DNA of 64,000 nt from Cetobacterium somerae ATCC BAA-474 (GTDB lineage Bacteria; Fusobacteriota; Fusobacteriia; Fusobacteriales; Fusobacteriaceae): contig NZ_KI518200.1 in NCBI RefSeq assembly GCF_000479045.1, forward strand, positions 1-64,000, in the 5' to 3' direction. Position numbers and translations under genes: made by a program. The notes under the pieces are model-generated. The model saw only the letters and a program-made list of their open reading frames with translations, was not told where the DNA came from and did not search any database. Position 1 is the first letter of the stretch. Each line of letters opens with the position of its first letter. Positions 28,996 through 30,552 of this stretch are shown piece by piece.

Positions 28996-30552
28996 TTACC
29001 ACACATTATGAGCACTTGAGTTAAATCCAGATGAGGTTGAATAATATTTTGCATCTATTGGCTTATCTTCGTGCACCAATATTAAACCTTTTGTCGATTT
29101 GACCCCTTGAGACGCTAATTCATTTTCATCTAAATTATTATATACTTGACTTTGTGTGCTATCTACTATATGAAACCCTTGCTTTGCATATCTATTTCTC
29201 AAAATATCTTTTGCTGCATAAGTTCTTGCTGCAATTGCTTGTACTTTAAGAGCTTCTAATCCAAAACTTTGTGGCATTTCACTTGGTACAACTTGTAGTA
29301 AATAATCTTCTATATTTATTTCATTAATTAAATTTAAACTTTTTCCACCTTGAGCTAATCTTATTTCAAATTCACCTCTATATGTTGGATATTTATTTCT
29401 TACATTTCTCCTTATGTTTGTTACAGAAATCATTTTATTAGATGTGATGTTTATAAAGTTTCTTGTCTTCAATCTTAATTTATTTTGAACAATTACTTGT
29501 GTATATCCATCTTTTACTACAAAATCAACCGAAGTTCTTGGATTTATATTTACATTTCCATCTTTACTTTTTATTTTTATGGTTCCTAAAGAAAACATTG
29601 AAATTTTTGAATGATTAAGAGTTGAAAATCCACTGTTCATTATACCAACTCTTATTTTATCTCCTATTCCATCTACTGATCTCATATTTTTTAACTTTGT
29701 ATCTGTATAATATCTTTGTAAAACTTGTTTGTATGAATATCCCTTATTTTTAGTTAAATCCATAGCAGACCATTGAGGTATACCGGAACCATGTCCAAAT
29801 CCTCCACCATAAATATTAAAACCACCATTTCCTAGCTTTTCTATTGCTATAAATGCTGATGGTAACATACTTGGATTTTTTGATATTGGCTTATCATTGT
29901 AGCTAGCACTTCCTCCTTTGGCACCATAAATATTTACTACACTATCTACATTATTTCTACTTAAACTTAGTAAATTTCTAATATTCCCCTCTTTTGCAAC
30001 AATATATTCTCCTCTAGTTCCTTTTATTAATAATTTTGTTACTAAACCTGATTTACCTCTTTCAAGAACTCTTAAAGTTATAACTTCACCAACTGGATTT
30101 AATGGAATTTTTTTAGCTATCCATTCTCCTTTTTCATAAGTTAATACCTCTTTTGGTCTTCTCGAACTTAAAGTTACTAAATTTTTATTTAATACATTAC
30201 TTATCTCTTTTTTAGTTAAAGTAACTTTCCATCTCCAATAATTTGAATTATCTCCATGTCCCTTAACTTTAGTATTTTTGTAAAAATCTAAAAATTCTTT
30301 TTCTTTATAATACTTAATTGGAACTTTTGGGGACTCCATATCGTTTACATATTTTAAATATGGTATCGGTCTTGCCACAGGTATTTTATCTTTAGAATAA
30401 CTCCCATATAAATCAACTCTATCTCCTTTTAAATTAGATGAAGAACTTCCTGGTCTTTCATAATAATCTTTTTTTGAACTACTACTACATCCTGTAAAAC
30501 CTAATAAACAAATACCAATAGCTATCATATTTTTTATATTTCGCTTTTTCAT
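28996..30552 (-). CDS. SpoIID/LytB-type lipoprotein with permuted halves
   Basis: 518-aa lipoprotein (lipobox FTGC, Cys22). SpoIID family members are murein-stripping lytic transglycosylases or their enhancers. Here the parts come in unusual order. Residues 63-290 correspond to the C-terminal half of SpoIID: IPYLKYV (63-69), WRWKVTL (106-112), GFGHGSGIPQWSA (251-263), YYTDTKL (281-287). Residues about 299-518 correspond to the N-terminal catalytic half: YLLQVVPSEMP with the conserved Glu425, ALKVQAIAARTYA (434-446), QSQVY, YSTSSGF (504-510), ending at NVW where ordinary members continue into PYLK. The protein therefore looks circularly permuted, not simply truncated. Start overlaps kdsB stop by one base. 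No terminator is seen before the tetR promoter. Role inferred: peptidoglycan processing in the envelope. Confidence 0.85.
   Translation of the reverse strand: MKKRNIKNMIAIGICLLGFTGCSSSSKKDYYERPGSSSSNLKGDRVDLYGSYSKDKIPVARPIPYLKYVNDMESPKVPIKYYKEKEFLDFYKNTKVKGHGDNSNYWRWKVTLTKKEISNVLNKNLVTLSSRRPKEVLTYEKGEWIAKKIPLNPVGEVITLRVLERGKSGLVTKLLIKGTRGEYIVAKEGNIRNLLSLSRNNVDSVVNIYGAKGGSASYNDKPISKNPSMLPSAFIAIEKLGNGGFNIYGGGFGHGSGIPQWSAMDLTKNKGYSYKQVLQRYYTDTKLKNMRSVDGIGDKIRVGIMNSGFSTLNHSKISMFSLGTIKIKSKDGNVNINPRTSVDFVVKDGYTQVIVQNKLRLKTRNFINITSNKMISVTNIRRNVRNKYPTYRGEFEIRLAQGGKSLNLINEINIEDYLLQVVPSEMPQSFGLEALKVQAIAARTYAAKDILRNRYAKQGFHIVDSTQSQVYNNLDENELASQGVKSTKGLILVHEDKPIDAKYYSTSSGFNSSAHNVW

Follow-up and report, generated by a model that had tools for sequence, protein, structure and literature searches.

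A circularly permuted SpoIID/LytB-family lipoprotein in Cetobacterium and its relatives

Can the chain of a SpoIID/LytB-family protein be opened at one point, closed at another, and still be inherited as an intact gene? The question is raised by a 518-amino-acid protein encoded in a 64,000-nucleotide stretch of the Cetobacterium somerae ATCC BAA-474 genome (contig NZ_KI518200.1, positions 1 to 64,000; henceforth termed the window). The collinear core-then-tail order of the family is not kept in this protein, which carries the tail half first, then a beta module, and finally the catalytic core. An earlier note on the window had interpreted this arrangement as a circular permutation with abutting breakpoints, and the motif positions it gave agree with the translated open reading frame: IPYLKYV at residues 63-69, WRWKVTL at 106-112 (as NYWRWKVTL), GFGHGSGIPQWSA at 251-263, YYTDTKL at 281-287, and a core running from residue 425 through EMP...ALKVQAIAARTYA...STSSGF to a C-terminal NVW, in which residue 518 is the Trp. 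The gene and its parts are as follows:

28996..30552, minus strand: whole gene of the permuted SpoIID/LytB lipoprotein, 518 amino acids, with the ATG at 30552 and the stop codon at 28996-28998
30370..30552, minus strand: residues 1-61, signal peptide, lipobox LLGFTGC with a predicted lipidated Cys22, and low-complexity tether
29665..30369, minus strand: residues 62-296, the canonical C-terminal half, here N-terminal, with PYL, YWRWKV, GFGHGSGIPQWSA and YYTDTKL
29344..29664, minus strand: residues ~297-403, beta module (IRVGI...YRGEFEI), found ahead of the core in normal-order SpoIID/LytB proteins of the long form
28999..29343, minus strand: residues 404-518, catalytic core, with PF08486 at 404-494, the Glu425 codon at 29278-29280 and Trp518 at the end

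For analysis of the chain order, a profile was built from normal-order Bacillota proteins only, and every rotation of residues 62-518 was scored against it. In natural order the protein matched as two swapped blocks, with residues 298-518 on model positions 4-226 (239.6 bits) and residues 59-289 on positions 234-458 (158.5 bits). Rotation at 291-296 merged these blocks into a single domain of 400.5 bits that spans model positions 4-458 of 459, and all other rotations scored lower. Residues 62-296 alone reached 159 bits over model positions 238-458, as expected from the note's assignment of the N-terminal half to the canonical C-terminal half. Shuffling either half cost that half's share of the score; when residues 62-296 were shuffled, the rotated score fell from about 400 to about 244. 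The rotation scan and the shuffling together show that each part is present once, in preserved cyclic order, with the old ends fused and the new ends within the Trp/PYL loop. The core block ends at model position 226 and the tail block begins at 234-238; the new ends are thus adjacent in the canonical sequence, inside a loop of ~8-12 residues between a conserved Trp and PYL. The moved unit is the entire C-terminal half (62-296), set ahead of the beta module and core (297-518). The corresponding rearrangement would have joined the old C-terminus to the front of the beta module and opened the chain in the Trp/PYL loop to give the new ends.

Three solved SpoIID structures also align in two swapped blocks; for 5i1t, query residues 411-516 fall on chain positions 63-183 and residues 214-290 on positions 256-329. 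TIGR02669, the SpoIID_LytB domain model that includes the tail half, scored 159.7 bits against a cut-off of 83.3, split over two stretches, and the PF08486 core at 404-494 scored 88.4 bits against a cut-off of 23. The stage II sporulation protein D equivalog TIGR02870 gave 112 bits, below its cut-off of 234.75, so the protein is not sporulation SpoIID proper. Alignment of the rotated sequence with a normal-order relative from Caloramator gives 145 identities in 432 columns (34%), and the secondary structures of two separate AlphaFold2 models of these proteins agree at 385 of 432 positions, the register-shifted maximum being 186. Both models have similar predicted local distance difference test (pLDDT) and predicted template-modelling (pTM) scores, with 89.9 and 0.84 for the permuted protein and 87.1 and 0.83 for the Caloramator relative. 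A Foldseek search with the normal-order model retrieved SpoIID (5i1t/4rwr, E 5.5e-13, template-modelling (TM) score 0.73), whereas the permuted model gave no SpoIID match, its best plausible hit being the lytic transglycosylase SleC (9h68, probability 0.92, low TM). Because the normal-order control matched SpoIID, we attribute this miss to chain order, to which Foldseek is sensitive. Judged from these comparisons at the sequence level, the 518-amino-acid protein is a SpoIID/LytB member by homology that is permuted in topology.

The earlier note had suggested looking for the same order across Fusobacteriota. We surveyed 98 genomes of this phylum, the source genome counted in, 77 of which carry a SpoIID gene. 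All 46 SpoIID genes in 44 genomes, spread over eight genus-level groups of the source family, have the permuted order. The remaining 33 SpoIID-bearing genomes, including six genus-level groups of the source family, have the normal order, and none of the 77 contains both forms. The source genome (99% complete) has one PF08486 gene, the permuted one, and the PF08486 search found no second, normal-order SpoIID elsewhere in it. Named records from Fusobacterium animalis and F. vincentii show the same permuted order, the F. animalis record being annotated as 'SpoIID/LytB domain-containing protein'. In an alignment of 33 permuted proteins, the lipobox Cys22 and Glu425 are invariant, and 32 proteins end exactly at the Trp where the loop preceding PYL starts, which bears out the proposed abutting breakpoints. 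Omega values of ~0.04-0.18 against close relatives in both halves indicate purifying selection, which is weakest, among the three parts, in residues 1-61. The permutation is hence genuine and inherited, and the routine annotation 'SpoIID/LytB domain-containing protein' has kept it from notice.

In the flanks examined, the permuted gene lies directly after kdsB, the exceptions being second copies in two genomes of group g11. In the window, the two genes overlap by one base at the kdsB stop and permuted-gene start (TAATG):

30552..31310, minus strand: kdsB (CMP-Kdo synthetase), directly upstream of the permuted gene

Among normal-order genomes, kdsB was located in nine, and in none of them does a SpoIID gene adjoin it. 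The second SpoIID genes of the two g11 genomes (L049 and L076) are divergent, deep-branching permuted copies away from kdsB, and L076 lacks the C-terminal Trp. Five groups of family f4 (g18, g19, g21, g22 and g24) have no PF08486 gene, and many of their genomes are nearly complete; SpoIID is therefore dispensable in that lineage. The window also encodes a second FtsZ (32085-33029, plus strand) of 314 amino acids, which ends just past the FtsZ_C domain and so has no C-terminal tail of the usual kind. The same contig encodes the main FtsZ at a distance of ~110 kb, and a second FtsZ near kdsB was seen only in Cetobacterium-like relatives.

Where did the permuted gene come from? When the permuted proteins were rotated and made into a hidden Markov model (HMM), about twenty long Bacillota proteins matched it as a single domain that runs uninterrupted through the joint, Caloramator australicus L008 reaching 377 bits (3-453 of 457). 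The best match is Paenibacillus guangzhouensis WP_193727025.1 (420 bits, 8-452). These long proteins share all three modules with the permuted form, including the middle region, which in the permuted protein lies in the N-terminally placed half between NYWRWKVTL and GFGHGSGIPQWSA. They differ in their order, beta-core-tail, and in additional N-terminal regions that carry a membrane helix or a signal peptide, such as the Caloramator membrane helix H11-31 N-terminal to the beta module. The short normal-order proteins found in other Fusobacteriota reach 136-184 bits and have no counterpart of the middle region (model positions about 240-355). In a phylogenetic tree, the permuted and long Bacillota proteins form one clade with a support of 98. 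Based on this tree and the common middle region, we favor a long Bacillota-like ancestor with loss of the native short gene. A single origin of the permutation is compatible with the data (p = 0.73), and its placement in an ancestor shared by Cetobacterium, Fusobacterium and related genera is favored, though not proven.

The native short SpoIID of Fusobacteriota could instead have been converted in place into the permuted gene. Such a conversion predicts that each genome holds one form, permuted or normal, and never both, as is observed, and a native origin is not rejected in the approximately unbiased (AU) test (p-AU 0.11, 140 shared columns). However, the middle region common to permuted and long proteins is missing from the short form, the well-supported clade unites exactly the permuted and the long proteins, and the permuted gene sits at kdsB, a site without SpoIID in normal-order genomes. 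We therefore regard an origin in place as unlikely and retain the long Bacillota-like ancestor. Tandem duplication followed by trimming is the textbook route to circular permutation; no convincing second copy of either half, as in a tandem-duplicated intermediate, was present in the reading frames retrieved. No permuted SpoIID was seen in 120 Spirochaetota genomes, and in Bacillota (291 and 349 sampled genomes) only a different, SLH-type case was noticed; the phyla sampled were Fusobacteriota, Spirochaetota and Bacillota. One locus of Bacillota genome G379 (L117, frame +0) has its core and tail halves in two reading frames, with one stop between them ~20 residues beyond the Trp/PYL joint and the tail in the next frame; it is probably a broken gene rather than a split form.

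As a reference for catalysis, we used the glutamate E101 of Clostridioides difficile SpoIID, E88 in Bacillus subtilis. E425 of the permuted protein aligns with E101 of C. difficile SpoIID (5txu), whose mutation abolishes activity, and the substrate of that enzyme is glycan denuded by the amidase SpoIIP (PMC6221140). SpoIID proper (B. subtilis; C. difficile 5i1t/5txu; B. anthracis 4rwr) resembles the permuted protein in its core with the essential Glu and in the GHG tail, and differs in chain order, in its sporulation role, and in lacking the beta module and middle region; the zinc motif of C. difficile SpoIID is specific to that protein (PMC6221140). A SpoIID homologue of Waddlia (Chlamydiales), likewise a SpoIID-domain protein of a non-sporulating diderm, is a glycan-cleaving enzyme located at the division septum (PMC6635528); no permutation is reported in that paper. 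The source genome encodes one Amidase_3 protein, the N-terminal part of which appears AMIN-like by eye. A lipid-anchored lytic transglycosylase is suggested by the correspondence of E425 to E101, by the Waddlia homologue, and by this Amidase_3 protein.

We thus consider it likely that the permuted protein is a long SpoIID/LytB member, permuted once in an ancestor, that keeps a normal SpoIID-like fold and acts as a lipid-tethered lytic transglycosylase on denuded glycan via Glu425. The protein would fold as a single globule, like normal SpoIID, and Glu425 would cleave glycan strands lacking peptide stems, downstream of the Amidase_3 amidase. A lipid at Cys22 would tether the enzyme at the PYL loop through a flexible linker; pLDDT values fall below 50 at residues 20-38 of the model. 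The tether would thereby be shifted to the PYL loop from the beta-module side, where long relatives carry their membrane helix. The enzyme probably resides at the septum, by analogy with Waddlia. Besides the AU result above, two further points weigh against this reading: activity, structure and localization of the permuted members are predictions, and the septal role draws on the analogy with the chlamydial enzyme (PMC6635528).

The protein might also be permuted in sequence yet no longer an enzyme, serving as a structural or regulatory peptidoglycan-binding lipoprotein. B. subtilis LytB, a modifier of the amidase LytC, provides a precedent, the long SpoIID/LytB form includes proteins annotated merely as domain-containing, and activity in the permuted subgroup is a prediction. 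Yet in addition to the catalytic Glu, the family invariants H254, Q260, S505 and R107-W108 are invariant in the 33 permuted proteins, as are their counterparts in normal-order relatives, which makes loss of activity rather improbable. That the N-terminal half is an unrelated or separately acquired domain resembling SpoIID motifs by chance could be read from Pfam alone, which annotates just residues 404-494, but it is scarcely credible given the independent score of residues 62-296, the drop on shuffling, and the matches to SpoIID structures. An error of assembly, or a local rearrangement that broke the gene in a single strain, is conceivable for a 172-contig draft but can be dismissed, since the same order recurs in 44 genomes, including single-contig ones, and in the named Fusobacterium records.

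A second case of permutation came from a query across the joint, which gave one continuous match to a 787-amino-acid protein in Bacillota genome G570; relatives in G482, G398 and G444 bring the total to four Bacillota genomes.

L132:2086-4449, plus strand: SLH-type permuted SpoIID (also in L136, L137 and L138; for L138 the tail position only, read directly)

In this form, only the last ~50 residues (GGG.GHR.GMSQ...HYYPGT) have moved ahead of the beta module, while PYL, YFRW and LPSPLL remain behind the core and are followed by SLH domains at the C-terminus. The SLH-type and Fusobacteriaceae forms are permutations of the same domain and share one fusion point, at which the end of the tail meets the beginning of the beta module. 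Unlike the Fusobacteriaceae form, the SLH-type protein is opened just before the GGG.GHG strand and has C-terminal S-layer domains and no lipid. Because the new ends were opened elsewhere, though the old ends were fused at the same place, we consider the two events independent. The shared fusion point suggests that, in the long form, the natural ends are close together.

It is uncommon for a natural circular permutation to be fixed throughout an entire bacterial lineage. The enzyme family is a known one, and in the openly accessible literature we found no publication on either SpoIID permutation or on Fusobacterium SpoIID. Permuted cases are probably under-counted, since tools that depend on chain order yield only a domain label and Foldseek misses the family. 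The permutation described here sits in a widespread cell-wall enzyme family and is carried by human-associated Fusobacterium. More speculatively, the SpoIID/LytB fold may have undergone two or more permutations in nature that differ in their new ends and share the fusion point, and the permuted copy may have replaced the ancestral normal-order enzyme in Fusobacteriaceae because the anchor moved to another face, altering access to septal glycan under the outer membrane; we regard this combined scenario as possible but doubtful. The second, independent permutation makes the question of chain order a general one for the SpoIID fold, and, because normal-order relatives of similar sequence exist, the permuted proteins and these relatives offer a natural pair in which to study how chain order and anchor position affect a peptidoglycan enzyme.
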